Shown here one piece after another: positions 5,025 to 43,122 of a stretch of DNA of 43,122 nt. The position numbers and the translations under genes were made by a program. The notes under the pieces are model-generated. The model was not told the DNA's origin. It ran no database searches and saw only the letters and a list, made by a program, of their open reading frames with translations. The stretch is from a virus. Position 1 is the first letter of the stretch, and every line of letters begins with the position of its first letter. Location of the stretch: positions 1 through 43,122 of the IMG/VR virus record IMGVR_UViG_3300005577_000052; one strand, written 5' to 3'.

Positions 5025-5026
5025 CC

Positions 5027-15095: not shown

Positions 15096-15099
15096 CCAC

Positions 15100-21058: not shown

Positions 21059-21924
21059 GGCTTCTCCGGTGCTGGCGGCAGCTCTCGCCAAAGTTTCACC
21101 CTGTCTGCGGGGTAGACCTCCGGCATTCCGTCACTGTCGGTGTACGAATCGTCACGCCACTCGGTGCCATCCCAACGACCGACGAAGCGCGCGTCTGACC
21201 GCGGCCAGCCGTCTACGTGGAACTGCACCAGCGTAAACGGCTCCGGCAACCTATCCTCAACCCGAACCCACCCGCCCGCAGCTTGGGAGGGGACGGTGTT
21301 CTCGGGGACGTAGCGCGTCAGGGTTCGCCTCCTGCTTGGGTAGCAGTCGACGTTTGCCTGTGCGGCGTTTCGTGACTCGGAAGCGAACACCGGCAACGGA
21401 TAACCGACGCCGCTCGGCTCCTCAGCGACCCAAACCTCGCGCATTGTTTGCCCAGTATCTCCGCTCGGCTCGGGCTGTACGTTGAGCGAGGGATGAAGCT
21501 CTACGATTGCTTCGGCCGCTTTGATTCGACACGCATCAGGAGACTCGGCCGTAAAGCACGACGCGAGCAGCGGGATAAACCAACGCCCGTCGCCATCCGG
21601 GCATGGCCCGCACGACTTGCCGATGCGCTCAGCCCACGCATCCAGCACCCTCACGGCCCACGTCGCCCTGTCCTGACTCCCAGAGCTACCCACAGAGGAG
21701 TCGGGGCGGGATTGGGCGCCACGGGATTCGGCAAGCGCCTTCTGCTGCCGGATGTACGCCATCATTCGCACGTCAGTGTCTTGCGGGCTGACGGGGATTG
21801 ACGCTTGCCAGCGACGACCGGGCTTCTCCGGGTTGTTGAAGCACTTGTCAATTAGACACAACGCGAGTTGCTGTGCCTCTTCATGGGTGACGGTGCCGAT
21901 TTCTTCGTCGAGGTTGCGGGTCAT
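21055..21924 (-). CDS. DUF551-containing early protein
   Basis: The 289-residue protein starts at the ATG overlapping the previous stop (ATGA). The C-terminal 75 residues are a DUF551 domain: GWVRVEDRLPEPFTLVQFHV, then a W-D-G-x-x-W strand pair (GRWDGTEWRD) and VKLWRELP at the end. DUF551 is widespread in phages and of unknown function. The N-terminal 200 residues hold an MMAYIRQQKALAES helix and a segment with Cys pairs (SCGPCPDGDGRWFIPLL) that I do not recognise. Confidence 0.65.
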   Translation of the reverse strand: MTRNLDEEIGTVTHEEAQQLALCLIDKCFNNPEKPGRRWQASIPVSPQDTDVRMMAYIRQQKALAESRGAQSRPDSSVGSSGSQDRATWAVRVLDAWAERIGKSCGPCPDGDGRWFIPLLASCFTAESPDACRIKAAEAIVELHPSLNVQPEPSGDTGQTMREVWVAEEPSGVGYPLPVFASESRNAAQANVDCYPSRRRTLTRYVPENTVPSQAAGGWVRVEDRLPEPFTLVQFHVDGWPRSDARFVGRWDGTEWRDDSYTDSDGMPEVYPADRVKLWRELPPAPEKP

Positions 21925-22430
21925 TTGGTGGGCTTTCTGTCTTGGCAATTCTCAGCGTGAAACGGAGCGGTTTCGCAGCATGACTCGCCGGGCTTCCCAA
22001 GCGCTCCCCGACAGACGCCGATAATTCTGCGCAGCTCGTCAACTGCTGCGCTTTGTCTCTGCGTAACGGGCGGGCCTCGCGTGTCGTCAATCGTGACGAG
22101 CGCCGACATGGCCAACTCCAGCGCCGACTCGAGCCGTTCGAGCTTCTGTTCCGCACGCTTCGCTCGGTCGTGCACGTACACCGCTAGCGCCGTGCTTGGC
22201 CCGGCACGCAGCACTACGTCCATTCGCTCCTTCGCTTCAGCTAGCTCGCGCTCTGCAGCCTCGAGCCTCGCCTTCGCCTCCGATGCTGAGCGGGCGAGGG
22301 CTACCAGCCTGTCGTAGTCCGTGCCAAGCAAGCACCGCTGACCGGTCAGCGTGTCTGCGGGCGACTGCTCTTCAAGACGCTCCAGGAAGCGATCTAGCTC
22401 GTCTGGCGAGGGGTGGGAGGGGTAGGTCAT
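21921..22430 (-). CDS. coiled-coil early protein with Cys-rich tail
   Basis: The 169-residue protein starts at the ATG overlapping the previous stop (TGATG). Residues 45-120 form a long charged coiled coil (ARLEAAERELAEAKERMDV; RAKRAEQKLERLESALEL), and the tail has CRGALGKPGESCCE plus FHAENCQD. It could be a dimeric DNA- or protein-binding factor. No known family is recognised. Confidence 0.5.
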   Translation of the reverse strand: MTYPSHPSPDELDRFLERLEEQSPADTLTGQRCLLGTDYDRLVALARSASEAKARLEAAERELAEAKERMDVVLRAGPSTALAVYVHDRAKRAEQKLERLESALELAMSALVTIDDTRGPPVTQRQSAAVDELRRIIGVCRGALGKPGESCCETAPFHAENCQDRKPTK

Positions 22431-23608
22431 CAGCCCTCCTCGCCGGGTTCCCGCTCGGTCTCATCGCCCGCAATCGCATCTTCCGGTCCCGTCGCCAGCT
22501 GCTTTTCGAGCTTCGCAACTTGCCGGTCGCAGTGCATCCAGAGCTTGCCGATCTCCTGGCCCTGCGCAGGACTGATGTCGCCGCTTTCCTTGCCTGCCTG
22601 AGCCCGGGCCATCAGCTCTGACTGCACGGCCCTGGTCCCGAGGATGGCGCGCAAGGCCAGCGCCTTGTCGTAGCTATCACATCGAGCCAGCGCGTCCTTG
22701 ACCTTGTTCAGCTTGCGGGCGATCTCCTCGCCAACCGCGCCGCCGTCTCCGGGCGGTGAACCGTAGTCGCGGTCCGGCGCGGCGTGCGGAGAGATATTCG
22801 GCGCGTAGTCGTCATCTCGCTCGTCGCTGTCTTCAACGTCCTGGGTGAAGATTTCGGAAGCGCAGGTAGCAAAGAGAATGGCGGCCACGTGGGCGCGCTT
22901 GCAGGCCATCTTGCGCACGGTGTTGTAGTTGTCGGCCAGGTCCGGGTTCGGGACACGGCCCTCTTTTTGGGACAGAATGCGCTCGTCCTTCGCCGGGAAC
23001 GTCGCACCGCATCCGTCCTTTTTGCGCCAGCAGAACCACTCCGGCTTGTCCTTGCTCTTCAGCAAAGAGCCCTCTTTGCCGCAACTCGGGCACTTCCGGC
23101 CGCCGTTGCGCCAAGCGTATTTCTTCTCGCGCGTTGAGCACGAGCCGACAGCCGCCGTCACCTGGTTCCCGGTCGGGATATGGTTGAGAACGCACGTCAC
23201 GACGCTCTCCAGGTGCTCGCCGTCCCAACGGTCCTCGCATTTGAAGACGGGGCCGAGTTGGAAGGTGAGTCCGAGAATCTCGGCGCCAGGCTTGAGCAGG
23301 CAGTCCTTCTGCGTGCCCGGAACCTTCCCGTAGTGCACATCGAGCTTCATGATCCGCTTTTGGACCTCGCGGACCTTTTCGACGCGCGCCACCACCACGT
23401 CGACACTGACGCCCTGGTCATCGGTGGCCCGGGCAATCGCACGCGGTTTGTTTTCAACAACAGCAATCGCTTCTGACATCTTCCTAGTCCTCTTCAGCCG
23501 CTTCGGCGGCACCGGTACGGCATCAAGCCAGTCGTCGATATCGTCTCGTTTGCGCTGCTGCACTTCGGCGACGGAGGCCGCAAGCTGGCGCTCAAGTAGC
23601 GTCGGCAT
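22430..23608 (-). CDS. conserved phage protein of the HYGKVPGT/TVRKMACKRA type, with zinc insertion
   Basis: The 392-residue protein belongs to a widespread phage family recognisable by HYGKVPGTQKDCLLKPGAE (about 92-110), an NQVTAAVGSCSTREKKYAWR strand, and NTVRKMACKRAHVAAIL followed by SEIFTQDVED near 230-265. A zinc ribbon is inserted between them (CPSCGKEG...WFCWRKKDGCGA). Members are usually uncharacterised and sometimes sit beside recombination genes, so a role in ssDNA handling is possible but unproven. An internal ATG at 23479 (MSEAIAVV, AGGA site) is an alternative start, but the longer form avoids an empty 113-base gap in this dense operon. Confidence 0.65.
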   Translation of the reverse strand: MPTLLERQLAASVAEVQQRKRDDIDDWLDAVPVPPKRLKRTRKMSEAIAVVENKPRAIARATDDQGVSVDVVVARVEKVREVQKRIMKLDVHYGKVPGTQKDCLLKPGAEILGLTFQLGPVFKCEDRWDGEHLESVVTCVLNHIPTGNQVTAAVGSCSTREKKYAWRNGGRKCPSCGKEGSLLKSKDKPEWFCWRKKDGCGATFPAKDERILSQKEGRVPNPDLADNYNTVRKMACKRAHVAAILFATCASEIFTQDVEDSDERDDDYAPNISPHAAPDRDYGSPPGDGGAVGEEIARKLNKVKDALARCDSYDKALALRAILGTRAVQSELMARAQAGKESGDISPAQGQEIGKLWMHCDRQVAKLEKQLATGPEDAIAGDETEREPGEEG

Positions 23609-23891
23609 CTTGCAATGCCTCCCACTCCGCCGCGGTCAGCCCGTGCTGCGCGGCCAGCCCCGCATCAGGCGCGCCGTCGATGTTGGCGACGTTTACGAGG
23701 CGGGGGCCGTCGTCAAACCCAGACGGGTCACCAAGCACCTTCCGGTACGGGGCCTGGCAACGGAGGTACCCGCGATAGAACGCCAGCGCCATTTCGAACG
23801 AGGCGAACGCGACCTTGTGGCAGCAGCTGTAGCCGAACTGGACCTCGTAGCAGAGGGGCGCGGGGGTCAGCTTGTAGGTGAGGCTGTCCAT
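23592..23891 (-). CDS. small early protein, aromatic- and Cys-containing
   Basis: This 99-residue protein starts at ATG 23891 (TGATG overlap). The first half, CYEVQFGYSCCHKVAFASFE and MALAFYRGYLRC, is compact and aromatic. The second half, LTAAEWEALQDADAT, is acidic-helical. The last 17 bases overlap the next gene. No family recognised. Confidence 0.5.
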   Translation of the reverse strand: MDSLTYKLTPAPLCYEVQFGYSCCHKVAFASFEMALAFYRGYLRCQAPYRKVLGDPSGFDDGPRLVNVANIDGAPDAGLAAQHGLTAAEWEALQDADAT

Positions 23892-24091
23892 CAGACTTCG
23901 CCTTTCTTGATTTCGGCGGCGCGGGCTTTCCACCCAAAGCCTTTGACGTATTCGATGAGCCCAGCGCGCCGCAGCTCTTGCTGGAGCTTGTCGACATCAC
24001 GGTCGCAGGACTTTCGCCCAACATGCTGGCAGATGCTGCCTCCTTTGCAGCCAGGATTAGCCTTGATGAAGGCAAGAATCTGTTCGCGCAT
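23891..24091 (-). CDS. winged-helix DNA-binding protein
   Basis: The 66-residue protein starts at ATG 24091, overlapping the previous stop (TGATG). The fold reads as winged helix: REQILAFIKANPGCKGGSIC (helix 1-2), HVGRKSCDRDVDKLQQELRR (recognition helix region) and AGLIEYVKGFGWKARAAE (wing). This pattern is typical of small phage regulators with one wHTH and nothing else. It probably binds DNA as a dimer and may regulate this operon. The larger open frame upstream is in the shadow of other genes. Confidence 0.6.
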   Translation of the reverse strand: MREQILAFIKANPGCKGGSICQHVGRKSCDRDVDKLQQELRRAGLIEYVKGFGWKARAAEIKKGEV

Positions 24092-24327
24092 CACGCTGCC
24101 CCCTTGTCCAGGTACCTCTGCGCCGCCTTGTCCTCCTCGGGCGTCCGCTCCGGAACGCTGCGAATCAGGTCGAGATGGGCGCGCCAAATCATCTGCTCGG
24201 CGAAACTTGCACTGCCGCGAATCAGCCGCGCGTCGCACATCTCGGGCAGCTCGCCCTGTTCGAGCTTGGCCTGCGCGGCCGAGACGAACCGGGCCAGGTC
24301 GGCGAGTTGTTTTTGGAGTTCGGTCAT
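24091..24327 (-). CDS. small helical early protein
   Basis: The 78-residue protein contains LQKQLADLARFVSAAQAKLE (helix), then a Cys and Arg-rich turn and ERTPEEDKAAQRYLDKG. It is coupled on both sides (ATGA with 24324, TGATG with 24091). No motif or membrane segment recognised. Confidence 0.5.
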   Translation of the reverse strand: MTELQKQLADLARFVSAAQAKLEQGELPEMCDARLIRGSASFAEQMIWRAHLDLIRSVPERTPEEDKAAQRYLDKGAA

Positions 24328-24512
24328 TTGCTGCTGCCTCCAGCCCGGAAGATGCTGCCGATGATGAAGATGGCGACGGAGCAGACGTACCAGGCCACGT
24401 GCACACCGAAGTGCGCGAGGACCCAGGACGCGCCAACGCCGAGCAGAGCGCTAAGGCAGAACGAAAGGGCTATGGAGAAAACCAACACACCAACAAGAGC
24501 CAAACCTTCCAT
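24324..24512 (-). CDS. small two-segment membrane protein
   Basis: This 62-residue protein starts at ATG 24512; a GTG three bases upstream is an alternative. It has two hydrophobic segments, about 3-27 (LALVGVLVFSIALSFCLSAL) and 36-55 (GVHVAWYVCSVAIFIIGS), with a short GASWVLAHF linker, so an inner-membrane hairpin is likely. Early-expressed membrane hairpins in temperate phages can exclude superinfection or lyse prematurely if overexpressed; which applies here is unknown. It is the only clear membrane protein of the leftward operon. Confidence 0.6.
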   Translation of the reverse strand: MEGLALVGVLVFSIALSFCLSALLGVGASWVLAHFGVHVAWYVCSVAIFIIGSIFRAGGSSK

Positions 24513-24772
24513 CACGCCGCTCCTTTCTCGCCGCTACGCATCTGCTGCCAAGCGGCTTCAATCGCTTGCTCTTCCGCCCCAATCCACTCCTCGCCGCCCT
24601 CCGGCCCGACCGTATCGAGCCAGTGCGCGCGTTCGAGTGGCGTCACGGTCGGTTCGTCCAGCACGCCGCGGAACGTCACCTCAGCGCGGAGTTCGTGCGT
24701 GACCTCGTAGTACGCCCCGTTGCGGTCCTCGCGTTCGAGGGTGACGGGGAAGGTGATGCGGAGGGTGGTCAT
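24512..24772 (-). CDS. small early protein, unknown
   Basis: The 86-residue protein has a beta-rich first half (MTTLRITFPVTLEREDRNG; YYEVTHELRAEVTFRG) and an acidic helical second half with EAAWQQMRSGEKGAA. The ATG overlaps the upstream stop (ATGA). No family recognised. Confidence 0.5.
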   Translation of the reverse strand: MTTLRITFPVTLEREDRNGAYYEVTHELRAEVTFRGVLDEPTVTPLERAHWLDTVGPEGGEEWIGAEEQAIEAAWQQMRSGEKGAA

Positions 24773-31219: not shown

Positions 31220-33640
31220 ATGAAAATCAGCTGCACCATGATTGTCCGGGACGAGGCGAGCACGCTCCGAGCCTGCCTGGAAAGCATCAAACCGCACGTC
31301 GATGAGCTGGTGATTGTCGACACGGGCAGCACCGATTCGACGCCCGAAATCGCGCGAGAGTTCGCCGATCGCTTCGAAGTTTGGACCGGCTGCAACGATT
31401 CGGAAGGGCGCATCGCGGACTTCTCGGCCGCCCGAAACTATGCGCTCGAGCTCGCAACCGGTGACGCCGTGTGCTGGTTTGATGGCGACGACGTGGTCCG
31501 AGGCGCTGAGAACCTGCGCCGGCTGGCTCAGGAATCGTCCGGCGAGGCTTGGGCATGGCTGGCCCCGTACGAGTACGAACGCGACGCACAGGGCCGCGTG
31601 GTGACGCTGCAGTGGCGCGAGCGGCTGGTCTATCCGCGAACCGGCTGGGAGTGGCGTAGCCCGGTGCATGAGGGCCTCTTGGGCAAGGCCGGGACGTCGC
31701 CGGCGTACCAGCAGACCGATGCGTTGGTCGTCGAGCACCAGCTGCACCGCTCGAGCAAGCCGCGCGACCCGCAACGGAACCTGCGCATCTTGGAGGGCCA
31801 CGTGCGCAAGGTCGGCGAGACGGACGCGCGCTCGCTGCACTACTTGGGCGCCGAGTTGATGTTCAACGGCCGGGTCGGTGAGGCCTGCTACTGGTTCCGC
31901 CGACACACACAGCTCAGCGGCTGGAGCGACGAGCGCTGCCTGAGTCTGCTGCATCTGGCCCGCATCACGCTGGCGATGGGCGACTGGCAGGCGAGCATCG
32001 ATTGGGCGCTACAGGCCGTTGCAACGAAGAGCTGGCCGGAGCCGTACTGGCTGATGGGGCAGGCCTGCTGCATGATGGCCGAGGCGGGCATCGAGCCGGA
32101 GTACAACTACCGCCGCGGTGCACACATGCTGCAGCAGGGCTTTGCGTGCGACAAGCCGGAGCTGGGCGGCTCGCTGTTGATGAAAGACCCCACGGCGCGC
32201 ATCGAGGCGCACCGATGGCTCGCTCCGGCGCTGGCCAAGCTAGGCCGAGTGGACCAAGCCATCGAGTCAGCGCAGACCGGTCTGGCAGGCAATGCCAAGG
32301 CCGAGGAGCTGCGGCATCTGCTGGGCCTACTGAAGCGCGAGAAGGTCCTGGCGCAAGTGGCCGAGCTCGACCAGCTGGGCGCGCTGCCGCAACACGCGGG
32401 CGTCGTCATCGCGGCAACCCTGAAGGGTGAGTTTAAGGTCGAGCGGGAGCGCTCCAAGGTCGAGCGTCATACGCGGGAATACTCGCCTGGCGACCGTGAA
32501 TGGCGAGAGGTGAAGAACGCGCACCCGCTGTTCCTTGGGGACCGCTCCGTGCGCCTCCGCATCGCCTTCTACCTCGGCCATCAGCTCGAGCCGTGGACGC
32601 CCGAGACGCTTGAAGCGAACGGCATGGGCGGTTCAGAGACGATGGCGTGGGAGATGAGTAAGCGGCTGGCGAAGCTCGGTCATGCGGTGACGGTCTTTGG
32701 TCACTGCAGCATGCTCAGCAAGGTTCAGGTATTCGACGGGGTCGCTTGGACAGACTCCAGTCGCTTTCCTAGCGATGTGCCATACGACGTCCTCATCGTC
32801 TCGCGCCAACACTGGGCGGTCGAGCTGCCGCATATCGCCAAGACGCGCGTCCTTTGGGTGCATGACGTCCATGTCGGTCCCGAGTTCACACCGGCCATCG
32901 CGGCGAAGTACGACCTCGTGTGGTGCCTGTCGAATTGGCACCGTGAGTTCTTTCTGCAGACCTATCCGTGGCTGCCGCCCGGCAAAGTGGAGGTGACGCG
33001 CAATGGAATCGACCCCGCTCGTTTTGGTCGCACTGACGTACCTCGCAATCCTCACCGGGCTATTTATTCGAGCAGTCCTGACCGTGGTCTGGAAGAGGCG
33101 GTCAAGGCGTGGCCAGCCGTGCGCAAGGCGGTACCCGATGCCGAGCTGCACGTGTATTACGGGTTCGAGAATTGGGAACGCTCCCTCGAGCTTAACGGTG
33201 ATAACGGGCATCCGAACTGCTCGCGGGCTGCGCTTACTCGGCTGAAGGGGCTCGTTGCGGAGACGCCCGGCATCGTCATGCACGGTCGCGTCAACCAGCG
33301 CGAGCTGGCCGATGCAATGCTAGGCGCCGGCGTCTGGTTCTATCCGACCTGGTTCAGCGAGACGAGCTGCATCACGGCCATGGAGGCGCAGGCAGCGGGG
33401 TTGTGGTGCGTGTGCCCGTATCGAGCTGCGCTGGCCGAGACGGTCCCAGACAGCGCTCGATGTTGGGACGTCGAAGGAGACCCCGTGAAGGCGGTACTGT
33501 GGGCAATTCGACTGGCGCGAAAGAGCACCGTGCATGAGCCATGCAACGTGTCCCTCGACGCTCTCGCCGCCGACTGGGACAAGCGCCTCCGTAAGCTCGT
33601 AGACGACGTGGTGCCAGCATTCTCGGAGGCGGCGCAGTGA
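31220..33640 (+). CDS. bifunctional glycosyltransferase (GT2 + GT4-like)
   Basis: The 806-residue protein is a fusion. Residues 1-110 are GT2: ISCTMIVRDEASTLRACLES opens the fold, DTGSTDST binds the nucleotide, and DGDD (88-91) is the metal site. Residues 170-430 are helical repeats, TPR-like. Residues about 446-800 are a GT4-like domain with NGMGGSETMAWEMSKRL (nucleotide loop), SSPDRGL and the EX7E pair Glu714/Glu722. It starts behind CAGGAAAT. The C-terminal half resembles the single GT at 34739, suggesting shared ancestry. Such fusions build or modify surface glycans or glycosylate proteins; the acceptor is unknown. Confidence 0.8.
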   Translation: MKISCTMIVRDEASTLRACLESIKPHVDELVIVDTGSTDSTPEIAREFADRFEVWTGCNDSEGRIADFSAARNYALELATGDAVCWFDGDDVVRGAENLRRLAQESSGEAWAWLAPYEYERDAQGRVVTLQWRERLVYPRTGWEWRSPVHEGLLGKAGTSPAYQQTDALVVEHQLHRSSKPRDPQRNLRILEGHVRKVGETDARSLHYLGAELMFNGRVGEACYWFRRHTQLSGWSDERCLSLLHLARITLAMGDWQASIDWALQAVATKSWPEPYWLMGQACCMMAEAGIEPEYNYRRGAHMLQQGFACDKPELGGSLLMKDPTARIEAHRWLAPALAKLGRVDQAIESAQTGLAGNAKAEELRHLLGLLKREKVLAQVAELDQLGALPQHAGVVIAATLKGEFKVERERSKVERHTREYSPGDREWREVKNAHPLFLGDRSVRLRIAFYLGHQLEPWTPETLEANGMGGSETMAWEMSKRLAKLGHAVTVFGHCSMLSKVQVFDGVAWTDSSRFPSDVPYDVLIVSRQHWAVELPHIAKTRVLWVHDVHVGPEFTPAIAAKYDLVWCLSNWHREFFLQTYPWLPPGKVEVTRNGIDPARFGRTDVPRNPHRAIYSSSPDRGLEEAVKAWPAVRKAVPDAELHVYYGFENWERSLELNGDNGHPNCSRAALTRLKGLVAETPGIVMHGRVNQRELADAMLGAGVWFYPTWFSETSCITAMEAQAAGLWCVCPYRAALAETVPDSARCWDVEGDPVKAVLWAIRLARKSTVHEPCNVSLDALAADWDKRLRKLVDDVVPAFSEAAQ

Positions 33641-34308
33641 AGCTCAACCTCTGCTGCGGCACGAACCTCTTTCCCGGCTGGCTCAACATCGACCAGAGCG
33701 ACGTGGAGCAGGACTACCTGCGGCACTTGCGAGACGCGCCGGAAGGATTCGTCTGGCCGCCTGAGCAACAGCGACTGGCTGATGCGGTGAAGGCTGGTCA
33801 GCTCGACTTTCGCCGGCACGATGTGCGCCATGGCCTGCCGTTCCCGGATGGCTCGGTCGAGGCCATCTACGTTGGGCAGGCTATCGAGCACTTCAACAGG
33901 CGGACCGAGGCGCCGCGGTTTCTGAAGGAGTGCTGCCGCGTGCTGCGGCAGTACGGGGTCATCAAACTGACCACGCCGGACCTTGGAAAGCTGGCGCTTG
34001 CTTACTATGACTCGACGGAACGCGGTGGCGGCGGACTGGGCGAGTTTACGGGGGAGCAGCCTGCTTTCTATGCCAGCGCCGAGCCGGCGGACCAGCTCGC
34101 GTATCTGCTCTTTGGCGCCTCGGGTGAAAACAGCACGAACGAGAACTACGAGGGGCACCACCACTGCTACACGAGCCGTTCGCTCGGGACGCTGCTGGAG
34201 GAATGCGGCTTCCAGGTCCGGTTCACGGATAACGTCGAGTTCCGTGACTGCATCGACAAGGGCATGTCGCACAGCTTCGCCATCGAGGCGGTGAAAGCCT
34301 TAGGATGA
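33637..34308 (+). CDS. SAM-dependent methyltransferase
   Basis: This 223-residue protein is read from GTG 33637. It opens with LNLCCGTNLFPGWLNID, a class I motif I/II pattern. FPDGSVEAIYVGQAIEHF and RVLRQYGVIKLTTPDL are the next two core strands. These are Methyltransf_11-like and common in sugar clusters. The substrate is unknown. It is coupled on both sides to sugar genes, so it probably methylates a sugar or the glycan end. Confidence 0.75.
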   Translation: MKLNLCCGTNLFPGWLNIDQSDVEQDYLRHLRDAPEGFVWPPEQQRLADAVKAGQLDFRRHDVRHGLPFPDGSVEAIYVGQAIEHFNRRTEAPRFLKECCRVLRQYGVIKLTTPDLGKLALAYYDSTERGGGGLGEFTGEQPAFYASAEPADQLAYLLFGASGENSTNENYEGHHHCYTSRSLGTLLEECGFQVRFTDNVEFRDCIDKGMSHSFAIEAVKALG

Positions 34309-34742
34309 AAATGAAGCGCTTTTGGTCAAAGGTAGACACGTCTGGGGAATGTTGGAATTGGACCGCATCCACCGACCATGACGGCTATGGCTACTTCGCC
34401 ATTGGCCTAAAGACCGCGAAGTCGCACAGGGTTTCCTGGGAGATTTCCAATGGGCCAATCCCGGCAGGGATGCATGTTCTTCACAAGTGCGACAACCCAA
34501 GGTGCGTCCGCCCATCCCATCTCTTCCTGGGCACCAACTCCGATAACATGTCGGACAAGGTCACCAAGAGGCGACAGGCGCGCGGCGTGCGACATGGACA
34601 CGCTGCGCTGAATGTCATCGACGTTTGGCTCATGCGGAAGGCCTGTGAATTATTGCCGGTATCGCAGCGGCAAGTAGCCAGAACCTGGGGCGTTGACCAG
34701 AAAACCGTGAACAATCTTGTGCGCGGAAAGTCTTATCAATGA
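34305..34742 (+). CDS. HNH homing endonuclease
   Basis: This 145-residue protein is read from ATG 34305 (ATGA overlap). It has the HNH_3 layout: ECWNWTASTDHDGYGYFAIG, then LHKCDNPRCVRPSHLFLGTN (about 59-79) with the metal Cys/His. A C-terminal helix-turn-helix, SQRQVARTWGVDQKTVNNLV (about 118-137), completes the typical homing endonuclease. It is less GC-rich than its neighbours and splits the sugar genes, so it is probably a mobile insertion. No intron or intein boundary is visible. Confidence 0.8.
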   Translation: MKMKRFWSKVDTSGECWNWTASTDHDGYGYFAIGLKTAKSHRVSWEISNGPIPAGMHVLHKCDNPRCVRPSHLFLGTNSDNMSDKVTKRRQARGVRHGHAALNVIDVWLMRKACELLPVSQRQVARTWGVDQKTVNNLVRGKSYQ

Positions 34743-35797
34743 GAATCGCCGTCACCTACGGCCCGATGTGCCTGCTCCGGTCTGCCGAGGAGACCTGGGA
34801 CGATCCGCGCACGGGCAGTGAGATTGGCTGGAGGCGGATTGTCGAGGGATTGAGGGCGCGTGGGCATCAGGTTGTAAGCAACCCGTCGGAGCCACCCACC
34901 TACTACATCGCCTCTCAGCTGTTCGATGCCGTGATTTCCATCAACGAACCGGACTCGCTCAGGCCGTGGCGCTCGAAGCTCCGAATCTGCATGTTTTGGC
35001 TGAACGAGTTTTCGTTCTGCAAGGAAGGATTTGACGAGCATGTCGACTGGTATTTCTCGCCGTCTGAGGCGCACCGGCAAAAGGCAATCGGAGACTGGGG
35101 AGCGCCGCGTCCCGAAAAGTGGCGGACCAACCTCCTCGGGTGTGACGAACGCGGAGCTGTGGGCCGAGCTGTATCGCGCATATCTGGAAGAGCCGTTTAT
35201 TGCTCATCCCCTGACAGGGGGCTCCACCGGGTCCTTGAGCAGTGGCCGTCAATCATTCGCTCTGCACCTCACGCGACGCTCAAAATCTTCTACCGGCTCG
35301 AACCCTGGCTCCGCGGATTCGACACCACGCCGTACTACCCGCCGATCGAACGCAACCGCACGCGCGCGCTCTACATCGAAGAAGCGCTGAAGCGGATGAG
35401 TGGCCCGGAATGGGGCATCACGGTGGTGGACAGCATCCCGCGTGACCAGTTGCAGCTCGAGCTCGCGCAGGCCGAGGTGTTTCTGCATCCGTGCGAAACG
35501 CTTTCGTGGAGCGAGGGCTTCAGTTGCAGTACAATGGAGGCGTGCGCTGCTGGAGCGGCGCCCATCATCACTGATTGCGACGCGCTTGGAGAAGTTTACG
35601 CGCCGCTCGACCCGGTCAAGACAGGCGACTGGGTCGGGTGGCGGGAACGCGTCATTAGGGCGCTAAAAGACGGCGAATTCCGGGAAGATTTGAGCAAGCG
35701 GGCACAGCGGCTCGCATCGGAGCATTCATGGGAAGCACACGTATCGAGATTGCACGAGTTCCTGATGACGCATTCGTCAACGATGCGGGCTGGATAG
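34739..35797 (+). CDS. GT4-like glycosyltransferase
   Basis: The 352-residue protein has the GT4 C-terminal fold: RAVYCSSPDRGLHRVL (about 151-166), VVDSIPRDQLQLELAQA, and the EX7E pair in SEGFSCSTMEACAAGAAP. The N-terminal half has an INEP..RP loop and a W-N-E-F stretch in place of the common glycine-rich opening. It looks like a shorter relative of the C-terminal half of the protein at 31220. The acceptor is unknown. The 3' end overlaps the next gene by 70 bases. Confidence 0.75.
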   Translation: MRIAVTYGPMCLLRSAEETWDDPRTGSEIGWRRIVEGLRARGHQVVSNPSEPPTYYIASQLFDAVISINEPDSLRPWRSKLRICMFWLNEFSFCKEGFDEHVDWYFSPSEAHRQKAIGDWGAPRPEKWRTNLLGCDERGAVGRAVSRISGRAVYCSSPDRGLHRVLEQWPSIIRSAPHATLKIFYRLEPWLRGFDTTPYYPPIERNRTRALYIEEALKRMSGPEWGITVVDSIPRDQLQLELAQAEVFLHPCETLSWSEGFSCSTMEACAAGAAPIITDCDALGEVYAPLDPVKTGDWVGWRERVIRALKDGEFREDLSKRAQRLASEHSWEAHVSRLHEFLMTHSSTMRAG

Positions 35798-36114
35798 CCA
35801 ACATCGGCTTCGGCGAGTTCCGATGCGTCGGGCTCATCTTCAGCAAGGCCGGCTCGTGGCGCTCCAAGCACTTCCACAAGACTGATGCGCACGTGCTCTA
35901 CGTGCTGAGCGGCGAGATGCACTACTGGGAACGCGACCTCGATGGCGAGTACGCGGCCGAGCCGGTCATCCTCAAGGCGAGCGAGCAGTACTACACGGGC
36001 CCGCTGCTCGTGCACAAGACGTTCTTCCCGGTCGACACGGTGCTCATCAGCATGAGCAAGAACCCGCGCGACCATGTTTCACATGAAACGGATGTGGTGC
36101 GCATCGATGGTTGA
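35728..36114 (+). CDS. cupin-fold sugar-modifying protein
   Basis: This 128-residue protein is read from ATG 35728 behind GGAG, overlapping the GT gene by 70 bases in another frame. SKHFHKTDAHVLYVLSGEMH (about 46-65) is a cupin motif with metal-binding His; a second strand set follows with HKTFFPVDTVLISMSK. Small cupins in deoxysugar clusters are often ketoisomerases or epimerases, which fits the dehydratase-like gene nearby. It could also be a regulatory cupin. Confidence 0.65.
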   Translation: MGSTRIEIARVPDDAFVNDAGWIANIGFGEFRCVGLIFSKAGSWRSKHFHKTDAHVLYVLSGEMHYWERDLDGEYAAEPVILKASEQYYTGPLLVHKTFFPVDTVLISMSKNPRDHVSHETDVVRIDG

Positions 36115-36130
36115 AGGGAGCAATGGGCGA

Positions 36131-36310
36131 ATGAGAACCGAGACCCAGCTTGTGCTTTTGGTGGCATTCCTGGCATCGCTCTGGGCCGTCTACGGTCTGC
36201 GCAGTGGTGCCGATAACGGCGAGTTTGGTAACACCAGCGTACGGTGCGTTAAGCTCAACGGTAACTGGCACGAGCCGCATGGCATCAGTCCAGGGTGGTG
36301 CGGTAAGTGA
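36131..36310 (+). CDS. small single-pass membrane protein
   Basis: The 59-residue protein is read from ATG 36131 with GAAGGGAGC upstream; an in-frame ATG at 36107 is possible. TQLVLLVAFLASLWAVYGL is a single hydrophobic segment, and the rest is polar with two Cys (CVKLNGNWHEPHGISPGWCG). It could anchor the sugar machinery or exclude other phages. The stop overlaps the next start (GTGA). Confidence 0.5.
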   Translation: MRTETQLVLLVAFLASLWAVYGLRSGADNGEFGNTSVRCVKLNGNWHEPHGISPGWCGK

Positions 36311-37611
36311 ACAACCATATCGGCCTTGACTACACCGAGCGCACGACTTGCCGGCTCTGTGACAGCTCGAACCTGTCGCCTGTGCTGGACTTGGGCGAGA
36401 CGCCGCTGGCGAACGAGCTCGGCTTGCGGGAGCAGCGTGGTACCTGTCGCAAATGCGGAGGCCCCGTTGGCCTGAGACAGACCTACTATGACGGCACGGA
36501 TAGCCTCATTTGCGTGACATGTGGACTCAGGTACGGGGCGGAACATGAGCCACCGCTGCCGACTCAACCCCAGGAGCTGTTCCCGCTCGTGGTAAACCGG
36601 TGCGGCAACTGCGAGCACCATCAGCTCAGCATCGCAGTGAAGCCGGAGCGGCTGTGGGGCCCGAGCTACCCGTACCAAAGCGGCACGTCACCGGTGTTCC
36701 GGAGGCATCTGGAGGCGCTGGCCGATGAGGTCGCGGCGCTAAAGCCGGGCGGCCGCGTGCTGGAGATTGCGAGCAATGATGGGACTCTGGTCAAGATGCT
36801 TGGAGAGCGTGGCGTGGTGGCCATGGGTGTCGACCCGAGTGGCCCGGACGATGATGCGCGAATGCTCTGGTCGCTGACTTGGCCGCCGCCCAGCAGAGAC
36901 TGGTATGGGTCGATAGGCTTCGACTGCATCATCGCCCTGAACGTGTTTGCCCACGTGGACGACCTGCACAGCTTCACCGCGGCCGTAAAGGAAGCGCTTG
37001 CTCCGGACGGCGTGTTCATCGTCGAGGTGGGCTACCTGGACAGCGTCGTAGCCAATGGGCACTTCGACACCATCTACCACGAGCACATGAGTTACCACTC
37101 GCTCAACCCGCTGGTGAGGTTCTTCGCGCGACATGGTCTGTACGCACACAACGTCAAAGGTAGCAAGTCGCAGGGTGGCTCTATACGGCTGTACCTGATG
37201 CACGAGCGCCTTCCGTTCGGCAGCGTCGGTAATGAGCACGAGCCGGACATTTCCAGGCTAGAGGCTCTCGCTACGGCGCGCGCGGCAGCTCTTCTGGTTG
37301 CTTTTGGCAAGCTCCAGAAGCGCGGCGAAAAGGTCGCCATCTACGGCTGCCCCGCCAAACTCACGACGCTGCTCTACGCGACCGGGCTGCAGTCGTTCCC
37401 GTTCGACTGTGTCGGCGACGACAACCCGCGCAAGGTTGGCCGTACGACGCCAGGCAACCACATCCCGATCGTGTCGGTGACGGAGATGCTGGAGCGGCGA
37501 CCGGACACCATCGTTGTCGCGGCCTGGAACTTCTTCGACGACATCCGGGACAAGCTGAGGCGGCTCGGGTTCAGTGGCGTAATCATCAACCCGATGGGGA
37601 GAGTCGAATGA
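36307..37611 (+). CDS. sugar C-methyltransferase with an extra zinc ribbon
   Basis: The 434-residue protein matches NovU/TylC3-type C-methyltransferases: CRLCDSSNLSPVLDLGETPL (Cys15, Cys18) and CGNC (Cys99, Cys102) form the usual zinc site. RVLEIASNDGTLVKMLGERG is the SAM motif, the HxxHxSY-like YHEHMSYHSL is the catalytic loop, and KVAIYGCPAKLTTLLY opens the C-terminal domain. Between residues 40 and 92 an additional ribbon (Cys47/50 and Cys69/72) is inserted that family members normally lack. Substrate is probably an NDP-4-keto-6-deoxysugar made by the next enzymes. Confidence 0.8.
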   Translation: MNNHIGLDYTERTTCRLCDSSNLSPVLDLGETPLANELGLREQRGTCRKCGGPVGLRQTYYDGTDSLICVTCGLRYGAEHEPPLPTQPQELFPLVVNRCGNCEHHQLSIAVKPERLWGPSYPYQSGTSPVFRRHLEALADEVAALKPGGRVLEIASNDGTLVKMLGERGVVAMGVDPSGPDDDARMLWSLTWPPPSRDWYGSIGFDCIIALNVFAHVDDLHSFTAAVKEALAPDGVFIVEVGYLDSVVANGHFDTIYHEHMSYHSLNPLVRFFARHGLYAHNVKGSKSQGGSIRLYLMHERLPFGSVGNEHEPDISRLEALATARAAALLVAFGKLQKRGEKVAIYGCPAKLTTLLYATGLQSFPFDCVGDDNPRKVGRTTPGNHIPIVSVTEMLERRPDTIVVAAWNFFDDIRDKLRRLGFSGVIINPMGRVE

Positions 37612-38552
37612 AGCGCGTGCTCGTAACCGGCGGCGCTGGATTTATCGGTCGGCACTTCGTTCGCTACCTGCTGGCCAACACGGACTGGCACATCAGCGTG
37701 CTGGACCGACTCGGCGAAGGCAGCGAGCTGACCCAGCTGTGGCGTGAGAACTCGTCCCGGCTCGACTTCATTTGGCACGACCTGCGCGCGCCCATGAAGG
37801 TGAACAACCCGCTCCGGTACCGCTACATCGTGCACATGGCGGCCGGCTCGCACGTGGACCGGAGCATCAAGGACCCAATGGGGTTCGTCGCGGACAACGT
37901 GACCGGCACGGCCAACCTGCTCGAGTTCGCACGGCACGTGGATGGCTTGGAAAAGCTGCTGCACTTCAGCACCGACGAGGTGTTCGGCGCGGCGAACGGA
38001 AAGGCGTTCGATGAGTACGACTCGTTCTACCCGACCAACCCTTACTCGGCTTCAAAAGCTGCGGCCGAAGCGCTCTGCCCGGCTTGGGCGAACACTTTCG
38101 GGCTGCCCATCGTCGTTACTCGCTGCACAAATGTGGCCGGTCCAGGCCAGGATGGCGAGAAGTTCATCCCGTCTACCATCGCCAAAGTGGGACGTGGAGA
38201 GGTGGTCCAGATCCATTCGCGCAACGGTGCCGCCTCCTCCAGAAAGTATATCGATGTTGAGGACGTGTGTTCCGCCGTTCATCAAGTTCTCATTCGGGGA
38301 GGAGTCATCGCCGGTCGAGGCACCGGCTACTACAACATCGCCGGAGAAACCGACTACTCCAACGTCGACGTAGCGGCGCGCATTGCCGAGCTGATGGGCA
38401 AGCGGCTCGAGTGGGAGCTGGTCGAGGACCCGCCGAACCGGCCGCGCCCGGACTTGCGGTACGACCTGAACAACTCGCGCCTGAAGAACCTTGGCTGGGA
38501 GCAGCGCATCAGCCTCGACACCACGCTGCGGAGGATTCTGCAATGCGACTAG
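37608..38552 (+). CDS. NAD-dependent epimerase/dehydratase (NDP-sugar)
   Basis: The 314-residue protein is an extended SDR: GGAGFIG (8-14) binds NAD, HMAAGSHVDRS follows, STDEVFG gives the active-site Thr-Asp-Glu, and NPYSASKAAAEAL holds Tyr-x3-Lys. ProArg-rich substrate loops (NRPRPDLRYDLNNSRLKNLGW) close it, as in 4,6-dehydratases and related epimerases. The Thr-Asp-Glu triad favours a dTDP-glucose 4,6-dehydratase-like reaction. It is ATGA-coupled to the methyltransferase. Confidence 0.85.
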   Translation: MKRVLVTGGAGFIGRHFVRYLLANTDWHISVLDRLGEGSELTQLWRENSSRLDFIWHDLRAPMKVNNPLRYRYIVHMAAGSHVDRSIKDPMGFVADNVTGTANLLEFARHVDGLEKLLHFSTDEVFGAANGKAFDEYDSFYPTNPYSASKAAAEALCPAWANTFGLPIVVTRCTNVAGPGQDGEKFIPSTIAKVGRGEVVQIHSRNGAASSRKYIDVEDVCSAVHQVLIRGGVIAGRGTGYYNIAGETDYSNVDVAARIAELMGKRLEWELVEDPPNRPRPDLRYDLNNSRLKNLGWEQRISLDTTLRRILQCD

Positions 38553-39199
38553 GGCTCATCGGCACGGGCAAACAGGGCCAGCGGTACCTGCAGGAGAAGA
38601 ATGGCGGACGTCATATCGTTGTTAGCGGGTCTCGTCGTATTCCTCTCGATTCTGTCGATGGTGTTATTGTCGCCACCCACCCTGCGGGACATAAGGAGCT
38701 TGCTCTCGAAGCAATCGCGGCGGGCAAGGCGGTCCTGATTGAGAAGCCGCTGGCGCTGAATCTGCGGGACTGCATGGACATCATCGATGCGGCCGAGAAA
38801 GCGGGAGTTCGTCTTGAGGTGGCGCACACGCATCTGTGGTCGGACCGTTGGTCGCGAAAGCCCTCCGATGGGAACATCATTGTTGATGTTCGCTGGAGCG
38901 AGCATGAGCGCGATTATTCGGTCTGGCTCGACTGGGGGCCGCACGTTCTTGCAATGGCGGCTTCGCTGCTGCCCGATGCCGGCCCTGCAGAGTTGAATGC
39001 CGCCGTGTGCTTGAGCAGGTGGAAAGAGCGACGCATCTTCGTGGCCGCTGTGATGCGTGACCGATCGCACTTTATCTACACAGGAGAATCCAACAGGTTC
39101 CCCATGGGCCGGATGACGGACGCGCTCTGTGGCGGCTACGACGTTACCCCTTACGACTTCAACCGGCGCGTCTACCGCGCCCTATTCGCGGAGGACTGA
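38543..39199 (+). CDS. Gfo/Idh/MocA-family oxidoreductase
   Basis: This 218-residue protein is read from ATG 38543, overlapping the previous gene by ten bases. LGLIGTGKQGQRYLQEKNGG opens the Rossmann fold; DGVIVATHPAGHKELAL and LIEKPLALNLRDC are the typical next motifs. At 218 residues it is shorter than usual (330 or more), so the C-terminal substrate domain is reduced. It may reduce a keto sugar in the same pathway, though activity is uncertain given the truncation. Confidence 0.7.
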   Translation: MRLGLIGTGKQGQRYLQEKNGGRHIVVSGSRRIPLDSVDGVIVATHPAGHKELALEAIAAGKAVLIEKPLALNLRDCMDIIDAAEKAGVRLEVAHTHLWSDRWSRKPSDGNIIVDVRWSEHERDYSVWLDWGPHVLAMAASLLPDAGPAELNAAVCLSRWKERRIFVAAVMRDRSHFIYTGESNRFPMGRMTDALCGGYDVTPYDFNRRVYRALFAED

Positions 39200-39456
39200 T
39201 GCCACCTGCAAAAGAGACTGACGGAATCGAGATTACCGGGTTCATTCTGCCTTCAACGGTGCGGCTCACGGCCACGGCCGAGTCGGGTCTGATGGTTGGC
39301 GCGCACTTCTCGACCGGCATGACCATCAGCGGCCGAATCAAGAAGATGGCTGTACTCGATACTGGCGCCGTGCGCGTTACGGTCGACCAGGGCGACGATA
39401 GGCCGCGCAAGTACCTGCTCATCTTCCCGACAGGCATGGTCGCGGAGGTCGCATGA
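39199..39456 (+). CDS. small unknown protein between sugar and chaperone genes
   Basis: This 85-residue beta-rich protein contains GIEITGFILPSTVRLTATAE, GAHFSTGMTISGRIKK and PRKYLLIFPTGMVAEVA. There is no signal or membrane segment. It is coupled to the oxidoreductase and to the GroES-like gene (ATGA). Function unknown. Confidence 0.5.
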   Translation: MPPAKETDGIEITGFILPSTVRLTATAESGLMVGAHFSTGMTISGRIKKMAVLDTGAVRVTVDQGDDRPRKYLLIFPTGMVAEVA

Positions 39457-39806
39457 GGCCCTACGCTGACAACGTGATTGTGCAGCTCGAACCGCTCGAG
39501 ACGATGACGGCGAGCGGTCTGCATCTGCCGCAGCAGTCGCGCCAGGGTGCGCGCGGCAGCCGCAAAGCCAAGGTGATTGCGTCAGGCCCGGGCCATTACC
39601 GCCAGGTGCGTGACGGCGCGAACGGCAGCCGGGACCAAGCGTTCATCGCAAACGAGACGCAGCCGGGCGACACGGTCCTGGTCGATGCGCTCGCGGGCCA
39701 AGCCTGGGAAGCCGACATGTCCATGCCGCGCCACAACAAGGGCGGTGACTTCGGGGACACCCGAATCGTTCGCGAGGCCGAAATTCTCGCAATCATCGAA
39801 GAATGA
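39453..39806 (+). CDS. GroES-like co-chaperonin
   Basis: This 117-residue protein matches the GroES/Cpn10 fold: MRPYADNVIVQLEPLE, the mobile-loop segment TASGLHLPQQSRQGARG where GroES normally has GGIVL-type residues, KVIASGPGHYR, GDTVLVDALAG and the end EILAIIEE. In the loop the GroEL-contacting I-V-L is L-H-L. About 20 residues are inserted before GDTVL. A phage co-chaperonin can enlarge or retune the host GroEL chamber for capsid folding, as T4 gp31 does. It sits right before the terminase/head genes. Confidence 0.8.
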   Translation: MRPYADNVIVQLEPLETMTASGLHLPQQSRQGARGSRKAKVIASGPGHYRQVRDGANGSRDQAFIANETQPGDTVLVDALAGQAWEADMSMPRHNKGGDFGDTRIVREAEILAIIEE

Positions 39807-40150
39807 AACGGCGATTGGGGGCACTCGAGCGCGCGGTCGGCAGCTTCGAAGCGATGGCCGGGCTCGCCACGTTCGAGGAAAAGCGCCGTTCGCTGCTCGG
39901 CAAGGTCGATGAGGTGTACGACCTTGCCGAGACGGGACGAAACTACGAAGACAAGAACGGCATCGAGCATCGCCAGCCCGACTCGAGCGGCATGGTGAAG
40001 TGCGTCGAGCTCGCAGCGCGCCTGCTGGGCGTACTGGCCGAGGCAGAGCGCCGCGCGAAGGATGGCGACGGCGAAACGCGCGAAGCAGACATCGAGACGG
40101 TCATCCAACAGCTGCAGAAGCTCGGGTACAGCGTCAAAAAGGCGGCGTGA
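39803..40150 (+). CDS. probable small terminase subunit
   Basis: The 115-residue protein lies directly before the large terminase gene (GTGA). It is mostly helical and charged (FEEKRRSLLGKVDEVYDLAE; LAARLLGVLAEAERRAKDG) and ends in VIQQLQKLGYSVKKAA. Helical oligomers with position immediately before TerL are typical of TerS. The usual N-terminal HTH is not visible, so the call is by context. Confidence 0.5.
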   Translation: MKRRLGALERAVGSFEAMAGLATFEEKRRSLLGKVDEVYDLAETGRNYEDKNGIEHRQPDSSGMVKCVELAARLLGVLAEAERRAKDGDGETREADIETVIQQLQKLGYSVKKAA

Positions 40151-41568
40151 AGCTCTCGCTCCCGTCAAAGGTGCTCGACTCGCTCAGGGCACTATCGGGA
40201 GCGCCTCACCCGCTCATCGACGGCATGCACGCCGTGCAGCGCTCGTTCGTCACCGACAAGCGAACGCGCAAGGCCTGGAGAGCTGGCCGCCGCAGTGGCA
40301 AGAGTCACGGTCTCGGCGGCTGGTTCTTCGACGGCATGGAGGAGACGCCAGGCGAGCGCTCGGTCTACGTCGCGCTGAGTCGCAGCAAGGCCAAGCAAAT
40401 CCTCTGGGATGGCGCGCTCGAGCGGATGCGGCGCGAGTACAACCTTCCGATCCGTCTGACCACGAGCGACGGGCAGCTGATGGTTCGACACCGCAACGGC
40501 TCGTCGCTGTGGCTGGTCGGATGCAAGGATAAGCAGCAGGCCGAGAAACTGCGCGGCGAGCGATTCAAGCGCGCGGCGGTCGATGAAGCGCAGGCGTTCC
40601 CGGACTGGCTTGAGTACCTGGTGGAGGACTGCCTTGACCCGGCGCTGATGGACTTGAGCGGCTCGCTCGCGCTGACAGGCACGCCATCTGCGCTCGCGGT
40701 TGGCTACTTCTACGAAGTCACGACCGGGCTGCGCCAAGGCTGGTCCACCTATCACTCGACGGTGCTCGACAACACGAGCATGCCGCACGCGCGGGCATGG
40801 CTGGACGAGAAGCGCAGGCAGCTCGGCTGGGGCGACAGTCACCCTACCTACCTCAGGGAGTGGATGGGCGAATGGGTCGATGACCCCGGCGCGCTGGTCT
40901 ACCCGATCCTGCACGAGAACAGCTGGGCGCCGAACAAGGATGGCTCGCACCCGTACGGTCTGCCGCCTGGTGAGTACATCTACGGGCTCGGCATCGACCT
41001 CGGGTTCGGGGAGCGCTCGACCGCCTTCGTTCTGGTCGCGGTCCGGCGCGGCACGGGCGAAATCTACGTCCTGAAGGCCTACACGCGGTCCAGGCTCATC
41101 CCGACGGCCCTGGCGAACCACGTCCAGGCGGTCCGGGACAGGCTGCGCCAGGAGACCGGCGCGGGGCTGCGCGTGGTGGTGGACGAAGGCGCGCTAGGCA
41201 AGGGCTACGCCGAGCAGATGCGGAGCATGGGCGTGGGCTGCGAAGCGGCCGAAAAGACCGAGAAACGCGCGTATCAGGAGTACGTCGGCGGCATCATCAA
41301 AAGCCTCGGCATGAAGGTCGACTTCGGCCAGTGCCAGGAATTGCTGAGCGAAACCCGCAAGTTGCAGTTCGACCCGGAGACGGGCGAGGAGGACGAGCGG
41401 TACCAGCGGCACTGCGCTGACGCCCTGCTCTACATCGTCCGGGCCATGTTCCCTCGGTACGACCCACAGCAGACCGAGCCGGAATATGGCACACCCGAGT
41501 GGCACAAGGCACAGATGGCAGCCGAGCGCGCCCGGGTCATCAAAGAGCACATGAAGCGCAAGAAATAG
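40147..41568 (+). CDS. large terminase subunit
   Basis: The 473-residue protein is read from GTG 40147 (GTGA overlap with the previous stop). Walker A is AGRRSGKS (46-53) and Walker B ends in Asp146-Glu147 (AAVDEAQAF), so the ATPase part is complete. The nuclease part has Asp284 in GIDLGFG, Asp346 in VVVDEGALGKG and Asp425 in HCADALLY, the three metal ligands. It packages DNA into the prohead. The frame upstream of 40147 lies within TerS. Packaging type (cos, pac or terminal repeat) cannot be read directly. Confidence 0.92.
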   Translation: MKLSLPSKVLDSLRALSGAPHPLIDGMHAVQRSFVTDKRTRKAWRAGRRSGKSHGLGGWFFDGMEETPGERSVYVALSRSKAKQILWDGALERMRREYNLPIRLTTSDGQLMVRHRNGSSLWLVGCKDKQQAEKLRGERFKRAAVDEAQAFPDWLEYLVEDCLDPALMDLSGSLALTGTPSALAVGYFYEVTTGLRQGWSTYHSTVLDNTSMPHARAWLDEKRRQLGWGDSHPTYLREWMGEWVDDPGALVYPILHENSWAPNKDGSHPYGLPPGEYIYGLGIDLGFGERSTAFVLVAVRRGTGEIYVLKAYTRSRLIPTALANHVQAVRDRLRQETGAGLRVVVDEGALGKGYAEQMRSMGVGCEAAEKTEKRAYQEYVGGIIKSLGMKVDFGQCQELLSETRKLQFDPETGEEDERYQRHCADALLYIVRAMFPRYDPQQTEPEYGTPEWHKAQMAAERARVIKEHMKRKK

Positions 41569-41595: not shown

Positions 41596-43122
41596 GTGGT
41601 GAAGCGCACGATTACGAGCACCCGTGCCACCGGGACGGCATGGCACAAGCTGCCGAAGTCCGAGATGGGCCAAGGCGTGGCGCGCATGATCGAAGCGTTC
41701 AAGCGCGAGCAGAGCGGCCGGCGAACAAGGTACCGCCGCAATCTCGAGCTGTACGAGCGGCGCAAGGCGAATGACGCCAGCGCTTTCCAGGACGGTGGCA
41801 GCGAGGACTTCGAACGTGACCGGCTCGGGCTGATTCGGTCCGCGGTCGCTACGGCCGTCTCGAGCGTGTACGCGCCGCAGAAGCCGAAGCCACAATTCCA
41901 GACGAGCGGCGCGAGCTGGGCCATCCGGCGCAGAGCCTACAAGCTCGATAGGATTTGCGAAGGCATCATCAACCAGCGGCAGGGGCGTTGGATCAACGTC
42001 TGGGCGCTGATGACCGATGCCGGCACCGAGACTGCCGTGCAGGGTGTCGCACCCATCAAGGTCGTCGCCGACATGGCGAACAAGCGGATTGCGCACAAGC
42101 TCATTCCGCACCCGGACATCTGGTTCGACCCGACCGAAGGGCGACACCCGCGCAACCTGTACCATCGCGAGCCCATCGCGGAGATTGACGCGCTCGCGCT
42201 GTGGCCGAACGCACGCGAAGCCATCATCGGCGCACAGCCGTACGAGTGGTACCAGCAGATTGCGTCGAAGCCGCGCGACTCGAAAACCATCGAGCTGCAG
42301 TACGCCTACTGCCTGCCCGAATCGACCGAGAAGCCCGGCAAGTGGTGCGCCGTCATCGCCGGCACGGTTGTGGACTCAGGCGACTGGGATGCTCCGGACT
42401 TTCCGTTCGTGATGATTGGCTGGGAGCCGCATCGCGAGGGGCCTTGGTACGCCGGCATTGTCGATGAGGGCGCGAGCCAAGCGGAGTTCTGTTCCGAGCT
42501 GTACTTGCGCCTCAAGTACCGCTGCATCATCGCGAGCGGCAAAAAAATCTACTACCCGCGCGACACGGTCAAAGCTGATGACCTGGCTCTGAACGATGCC
42601 ACTGTGGCCGTTGCCTTCGACGGCAGCATTCCGCCGCAAGAGAGCCTGACGCCGCCGTTCACTCCGACCGAGCAAGAGTTCCTCCAGTACAGCATCCAGA
42701 ACTTCTGGGACGCGATCGGCATCAGCCAGGTCAGCGCGGCCGCACGTCGCGAGCAAGGCGTCTCGAGCGGTATCGCGATGATGACGCTGAACGACACCAA
42801 AGCCGGCCGGCAACTGGTCAAGGCGCAGCGCTACGAACAGGCGTTCGTGGACTTGGCGCATCAGTACGTCTGGCGCCTGCGCGAGCTTGCTGCGGAGAAC
42901 AAAGACTTCTCGGTGCAGTGGGCGGGCAAGAAGCTCATCCGCGAAATCAAGTGGAACGACGCGGACGTCGAGGACGACATGTTCTCCGTCACGGTCGGCG
43001 CAAGCTCGGCGCTCCCGCATGACCCGGCCGGTCGCCAGCAGATGGTGTCCGAGCTGTACCAGCAGGGCATGATTTCCCAGGAGACGGCCAAGACGCTCAT
43101 CGGCTGGCCCGACCTGGACAAC
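41596..43122 (+). CDS. portal protein, N-terminal part (continues at 101 through 526)
   Basis: The gene begins at GTG 41596 or GTG 41599 in the same frame as TerL, 27 or 30 bases after its stop; ATG 41665 is a later alternative. The full protein would have about 650 residues. FQDGGSEDFERDRLGLIRSA and YEWYQQIASK are in line with podovirus portals; the DSGDWDAPDFPFVMIGWEP and LYLRLKYRCIIASGKKIYYP blocks form the wing/stem. The last 100 bases duplicate the start of the window. TerL-portal-scaffold-capsid is the usual order. Confidence 0.85.
   Translation, partial: MVKRTITSTRATGTAWHKLPKSEMGQGVARMIEAFKREQSGRRTRYRRNLELYERRKANDASAFQDGGSEDFERDRLGLIRSAVATAVSSVYAPQKPKPQFQTSGASWAIRRRAYKLDRICEGIINQRQGRWINVWALMTDAGTETAVQGVAPIKVVADMANKRIAHKLIPHPDIWFDPTEGRHPRNLYHREPIAEIDALALWPNAREAIIGAQPYEWYQQIASKPRDSKTIELQYAYCLPESTEKPGKWCAVIAGTVVDSGDWDAPDFPFVMIGWEPHREGPWYAGIVDEGASQAEFCSELYLRLKYRCIIASGKKIYYPRDTVKADDLALNDATVAVAFDGSIPPQESLTPPFTPTEQEFLQYSIQNFWDAIGISQVSAAARREQGVSSGIAMMTLNDTKAGRQLVKAQRYEQAFVDLAHQYVWRLRELAAENKDFSVQWAGKKLIREIKWNDADVEDDMFSVTVGASSALPHDPAGRQQMVSELYQQGMISQETAKTLIGWPDLDN
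43023..43122. repeat. terminal direct repeat, right copy
   Basis: Exact copy of positions 1-100. Removing one copy gives a 43,022-base circle in which the portal reading frame continues from 43122 into 101. Confidence 0.97.

Follow-up and report, generated by a model that had tools for sequence, protein, structure and literature searches.

Glycosylation of phage virions is already known, as indicated by the citation of Freeman 2023 in PMC11256854 for Che8-type mycobacteriophages. In C. difficile, SgtA, which combines a GT-A glycosyltransferase domain with tetratricopeptide repeats (TPR), is encoded beside the collagen-like protein BclA3 and adds N-acetylglucosamine to BclA3 threonines (PMC7157674), and in FlmG the protein acceptor is bound by the TPR part (PMC7591256). 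Here we analyzed a stretch of 43,122 bases from an uncultivated phage (IMG/VR virus record IMGVR_UViG_3300005577_000052, positions 1 to 43,122; hereafter the window), in which an island of genes for glycosyltransferases (GTs) and sugar-modifying enzymes occupies positions 31220–39199. We read this island as a dedicated phage protein-glycosylation operon that would act on a virion protein and share its expression with the genes for packaging and assembly, and we assign this reading a probability of roughly 0.6; the likely product of the operon is an unusual deoxysugar with a C-methyl group, which would be transferred to a protein that the phage itself encodes. The argument starts from features established at the level of sequence, namely enzyme families, catalytic motifs, an overlapping run into the gene for the large terminase subunit (TerL) and persistence in the phage clade. 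The enzyme island of the preliminary description was confirmed by clear family matches, and its genes are as follows.

31220–33640, plus strand: gene A, glycosyltransferase with a GT-A (GT2) part at about 31220–31744, a TPR superhelix at about 31775–32422 and a GT-B (GT4) part at about 32558–33610
33637–34308, plus strand: gene B, S-adenosylmethionine (SAM) methyltransferase (Methyltransf_11), possibly a sugar O-methyltransferase
34305–34742, plus strand: gene C, HNH endonuclease (PF13392, 1e-16)
34739–35797, plus strand: gene D, GT4-type glycosyltransferase (Glycos_transf_1, 3.5e-10), predicted to act in chain extension or capping
35728–36114, plus strand: gene E, cupin, predicted sugar epimerase/isomerase, the least secure assignment of the cassette
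36074–36310, plus strand: gene F, 78-amino-acid protein with a single hydrophobic stretch, as read from the sequence
36307–37611, plus strand: gene G, sugar C-methyltransferase with a Zn domain, a SAM domain and a C-terminal domain
37608–38552, plus strand: gene H, short-chain dehydrogenase/reductase (SDR) resembling dTDP-glucose 4,6-dehydratase
38543–39199, plus strand: gene I, short Gfo/Idh/MocA reductase of 218 amino acids (PF01408, 1.9e-15), predicted ketoreductase

Searches of Pfam, NCBIfam and PHROG revealed that the 806-amino-acid product of gene A carries GT2 (PF00535, 1.7e-16) and GT4 domains together, so that the two GTs described previously are indeed two GT genes but comprise three GT domains. 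The acidic DGDD metal motif (D88, G89, D90, D91) and the E-x7-E motif were invariant in five homologues. Pfam alone detected the TPR weakly (TPR_2, 0.004); the AlphaFold2 model (mean pLDDT, a per-residue confidence score, of 67) contained GT-A, TPR and GT-B parts, with helices at residues 186–401. A profile search against the PDB gave GmaR (6e-24), SunS (4e-15) and ThuS (2e-11) as the best matches, all to the N-terminal half, and comparison of the model with SunS gave a Z score of 22.5 and a root-mean-square deviation of 2.9 over 267 residues covering GT-A and TPR, against a Z score of 15.8 for WrtF, the best of the other GTs. The next families in a Foldseek search with the model were SPINDLY and O-GlcNAc transferase. 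The N-terminal half was closer to the polypeptide-acceptor enzymes SunS, ThuS and GmaR than to any polysaccharide GT, and gene A is predicted from these models and profiles to encode an initiating and extending protein glycosyltransferase.

Analysis of the remaining enzymes supported the earlier proposal of a C-methylated deoxysugar, since the closest solved structures to G were TylC3 (6e-41) and TcaB9 (7e-34), and the motifs of H and I were conserved. All three C-methyltransferase domains were found in G (Methyltransf_14, PF08484, 8e-24; Methyltransf_13, PF08421; Methyltransf_23, PF13489), which together with the Methyltransf_11 match of B (5e-9) bears out the two methyltransferases previously reported, and the Y-EH residues of the YHEH motif in G were invariant across nine homologues. 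An insert of about 45 amino acids resembling a zinc ribbon (CxxC...CxxC) was observed in the N-terminal Zn domain of G, only in the window copy among the nine aligned. The reported NDP-sugar dehydratase-like SDR was likewise found as gene H (GDP_Man_Dehyd, 4e-49; PDB 2hun, 2e-53); its match to TIGR01181 (2.5e-73) scored 247, below the equivalog cut-off of 365, and the dehydratase residues STDEVFG (Thr-Asp-Glu) and YxxxK were intact in ten homologues. The reduced Gfo/Idh protein was also found, but the start of gene I had to be corrected to 38543, which falls inside the last bases of gene H. Eight short homologues of I (218–263 amino acids) had invariant EKP and DYSxWxDWxxH residues; in the AlphaFold2 model of I the N-terminal Rossmann part was confident and the C-terminal half unreliable. 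The cupin was located where it had been described, but as a weak match (Cupin_2, 3e-4, under the Pfam cut-off; phrog_7851, 1e-7); gene E did not match the RmlC family in Pfam at E 0.01 and was kept in relatives. Gene F matched no Pfam family. The 2,3-dehydratase used in the TylC3 and TcaB9 pathways is needed for 2-deoxy 3-C-methyl sugars; a search for this NDP-hexose 2,3-dehydratase (PF03559) gave no match, and its controls were equally silent. These assignments point to a C-methylated 6-deoxysugar as the pathway product.

In the proposed pathway, H would convert a host-supplied NDP-hexose to a 4-keto-6-deoxy sugar, which E would epimerise or isomerise; G would then methylate a ring carbon adjacent to the ketone, I would reduce that ketone, and an O-methyl group may be added by B. 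The GT-A/TPR part of A would start a glycan at Ser/Thr (or Cys) residues of a TPR-bound phage protein, and its GT-B part, together with D, would lengthen the chain and cap it with the new sugar. A virion protein would most likely be the acceptor, and its glycan would then affect adsorption, stability or resistance to proteases.

The island was further connected to the packaging genes that follow it.

39199–39456, plus strand: gene J, small conserved protein, 27–42% identical in relatives
39453–39806, plus strand: gene K, GroES-like co-chaperonin, an assembly-related neighbour (NCBIfam GroES, 1e-7; phrog_3188, 1e-6)
39803–40150, plus strand: gene L, 115-amino-acid protein upstream of TerL, candidate terminase small subunit by position only
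40147–41568, plus strand: TerL, large terminase subunit (phrog_2, 3e-27)
41596–43122, plus strand: 5' part of the portal gene, the remainder lying at 1–526 across a 100-bp repeat, from clade alignment

From 31220 to 41568, genes A to L and TerL each overlap their neighbour by 1–70 bases, mostly 4, and because the overlaps are unbroken the run looks like a single operon with the packaging genes. The run had been placed just before the terminase, but it does not stop at 39199: overlapping genes continue through the GroES-like and 115-amino-acid proteins into TerL. This terminase link suggests late expression of the cassette. Immediately upstream, separated from A by 67 bp, are replication-type genes in the same orientation, and a promoter and terminator scan gave no signal above chance. 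Gene L matched no Pfam or PHROG family and was 57–62% identical in close relatives. The GroES-like gene adjoins the terminase in nearly all clade members and is possibly an assembly co-chaperonin.

The earlier gene inventory was otherwise correct but missed the HNH endonuclease inside the run. HNH genes were found at three different cassette junctions (34305–34742 in the window, L018:16649–17095 and L026:2756–3409), and in L002 an FkbM-like methyltransferase gene, its family read by eye, takes the place of gene C. Since the HNH junction varies, we favour an inserted endonuclease as the reading of gene C, which is probably a mobile insertion rather than a member of the pathway.

Relatives were gathered by scans with C-methyltransferase, TerL, GT and portal profiles. 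The core gene order was common to four phages including the window, with proteins 40–85% identical to those of the window; in close relatives B was 65–66% and D 67–75% identical. Portals of the wider clade were 54–85% identical, and each of the 11 clade contigs exceeding 20 kb carried GT and/or C-methyltransferase genes with conserved catalytic motifs. These contigs are the window, the phage contig of L065 and the records of L013, L018, L017, L024, L026, L027, L034, L036 and L039; where compared, the L018 and L017 records look nearly identical. The cassette is beyond chance because its genes turn up again in a number of independent relatives, the closest of which also keep their order. L024 and L034 had been candidates for phages without the island and were rejected, as the island is absent near TerL but present elsewhere in the genome (the L057 locus). 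Neither GT nor C-methyltransferase genes were seen in two contigs whose portals were just 22–26% identical.

A wider scan revealed A homologues in other, unrelated phages, several of them on contigs of 150–470 kb and some of them jumbo. At 10 of the 16 A-homologue loci outside the clade, collagen-like genes lay upstream of A on the same strand, the nearest overlapping A by 44 bases and the farthest 4.6 kb away; they encode 154–661 GXY triplets with Thr at 45–54% of the Y positions. No collagen-like gene was present at the other 39 loci (clade and controls). A Fisher test gave 6.6e-7, a value that overstates the association, as L057, a locus of the clade, was grouped with the loci from outside it and related loci were taken as independent. 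In L003 (L064), a low-GC, unrelated phage, an A-B-D-E-G-(endonuclease)-H-I series starts 39 bp after a gene for an 808-amino-acid collagen-like protein; this record contains a major head protein, did not match the window portal and gave no match in a phrog_9 search. On three phage contigs (L054:1–6234, L059:2–5473 and L050:1288–5991), genes with more than 450 GXY triplets were observed upstream of GT2-TPR-GT4 genes. L049, like L003, has a neighbouring collagen-like protein with GXT triplets.

A broader proposal, to which we give slightly less than an even chance, is that the whole uncultivated lineage depends on a self-encoded glycoprotein pathway, with its own C-methylated deoxysugar and with A starting and extending a virion glycan, and that versions of the module that circulate in unrelated phages, some of them jumbo, glycosylate Thr-rich collagen-like fibres.

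Several observations weigh against virion-protein glycosylation. The collagen-linked loci represent only about six independent lineages, and the window contains no collagen-like repeats, nor do close relatives contain any collagen-like or other obvious acceptor gene. The cell-surface polymer enzymes TarS, TarP and WrtF also matched A, less strongly, and likeness of a GT fold is no proof of a polypeptide acceptor. The position of the cassette varies: it is inverted in L028 and follows the tail and lysis genes in L057, so it is not always beside TerL. An RmlA-type nucleotidyltransferase (PF00483) was absent from the window in a search with positive controls, so a host enzyme must supply the NDP-hexose.

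Virion, DNA and host O-antigen had all been suggested as targets in the preliminary description. A polypeptide is now the best supported, by the likeness to SunS, ThuS and GmaR, the collagen-like neighbours and the packaging overlap, whereas DNA is disfavoured, and so is O-antigen conversion of the Gtr type, for lack of a GtrA. The main rival to protein glycosylation is nevertheless modification of the host surface, in which the GTs would add the C-methylated deoxysugar to lipopolysaccharide, capsule or another surface glycan during infection or lysogeny and so block superinfection or re-adsorption to debris. Genes for GT2, GT4, 4,6-dehydratase and C-methyltransferase are common in O-antigen loci, which speaks for this rival, as do the resemblance of the GT-A domain of A to wall-teichoic-acid GTs and the integrase and tail spike of the phage. 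Phage glycosyltransferase clusters have been read in this way by the authors of PMC7029224. However, the GtrA flippase (PF04138) was absent while the search controls were positive, no polymerase, ligase or further sugar family was found among the other open reading frames (ORFs), and the genes run into the terminase, an odd site for a lysogenic conversion gene; GT-A with TPR, moreover, suggests a polypeptide acceptor, and homologues adjoin collagen-like genes. We consider host-surface modification unlikely, albeit the strongest of the alternatives.

More doubtful still is a host protein or a non-virion phage protein, such as an injected or secreted one, as the target in place of the particle: the substrate of GmaR and FlmG is flagellin, which lies on the host surface, and the sequence leaves the choice of acceptor free, but the position of the genes is packaging-linked and the collagen-like genes beside homologues are phage-encoded. 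To our knowledge, GT-A with TPR is not the make-up of known DNA GTs, which argues against DNA as the target. Glycosylation of modified bases of the phage genome is very improbable, for although phage GTs perform it in T4 (PMC13216743) and two GT genes are present here, a thymidylate-synthase-type hydroxymethylase (PF00303) was absent in six frames with positive controls, and no base-modification family occurred among the 45 other ORFs. A search for a Tet/JBP-type oxygenase (PF12851) gave no match, but its controls were silent too, so it carries no weight.

The record carries an exact 100-bp terminal repeat (1–100 identical to 43023–43122) and a portal ORF that spans both ends; it is therefore probably complete and circularly mapping, at about 43.0 kb. 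The phage encodes a tyrosine integrase and a tail spike, with an SU10-type adaptor match and weak SU10-type capsid matches, and these features make a temperate, short-tailed phage plausible; the short tail proposed earlier fits, but the tail type is unproven. Candidate virion proteins are encoded at 2212–3543 (capsid), at 3550–4041 and at 5021–17033 (tail proteins). A DNA megablast of 26–43 kb against 50,697 phage records and a portal tblastn against the same records gave no matches, and a portal scan across bacterial genomes revealed no prophages. The one long match reached there through gene A, L065 (SCUK01000084.1), belongs to a contig binned in an Anaerolineae metagenome-assembled genome. 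Its portal gene is divided between the two contig ends, as expected if the genome of a circular phage had been placed in a bacterial bin. It is probably a circular clade phage of about 59 kb, with additional SDR and GT genes, and its bin is a possible hint of an Anaerolineae host. Elsewhere in the window, a tail-region protein at 15567–17033 has a GDSL/SGNH esterase-like domain (PF13472, 7.6e-7) that perhaps targets a host glycan, and a minus-strand gene block at 18508–24515, with nearly no family matches, is probably an early or accessory region.

Virion glycosylation has been documented for few phages. We found no description in the open-licence literature of a phage collagen and glycosyltransferase arrangement, of a phage C-methyltransferase/deoxysugar cassette as compact as this sugar pathway, or of its clade-wide retention. 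If protein glycosylation is correct, an operon combining a sugar pathway with a polypeptide-type GT would be a sequence mark by which glycosylated phages could be recognised in metagenomes, GXT collagen-like proteins would form a testable acceptor set, and the cassette might supply new enzymes for making C-methylated sugars.

Compared with known systems, the Gtr cassettes of P22- and Sf-type phages are also phage-borne glycosyltransferases; in contrast, the window lacks GtrA and its genes are joined to the terminase. TylC3 and TcaB9, which are sugar 3-C-methyltransferases, share with G the three domains, the Zn domain and the Y-EH active-site motif; their pathways include a 2,3-dehydratase, for which the window gave no match in the search with silent controls. 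The peptide S-glycosyltransferases SunS (of the SPbeta prophage) and ThuS, together with GmaR of Listeria, share GT-A and TPR with A and are its best sequence and fold matches, but each has a single GT domain and other acceptors, and GmaR has an anti-repressor domain as well. SgtA is 358 amino acids long, lacks the GT-B half and acts on a spore rather than a phage, and a collagen-like gene is missing from the window; the text consulted in PMC7157674 describes no C-methylated sugar operon. The SgtA–BclA3 pair nevertheless resembles the collagen-linked A homologues in having GT-A followed by TPR and a GT gene beside a glycosylated collagen-like GPT protein. Che8-type phages, for which the texts consulted note no sugar-biosynthesis cassette comparable to that of the window, have their own glycosyltransferases and carry glycans on virion proteins, as is proposed here.

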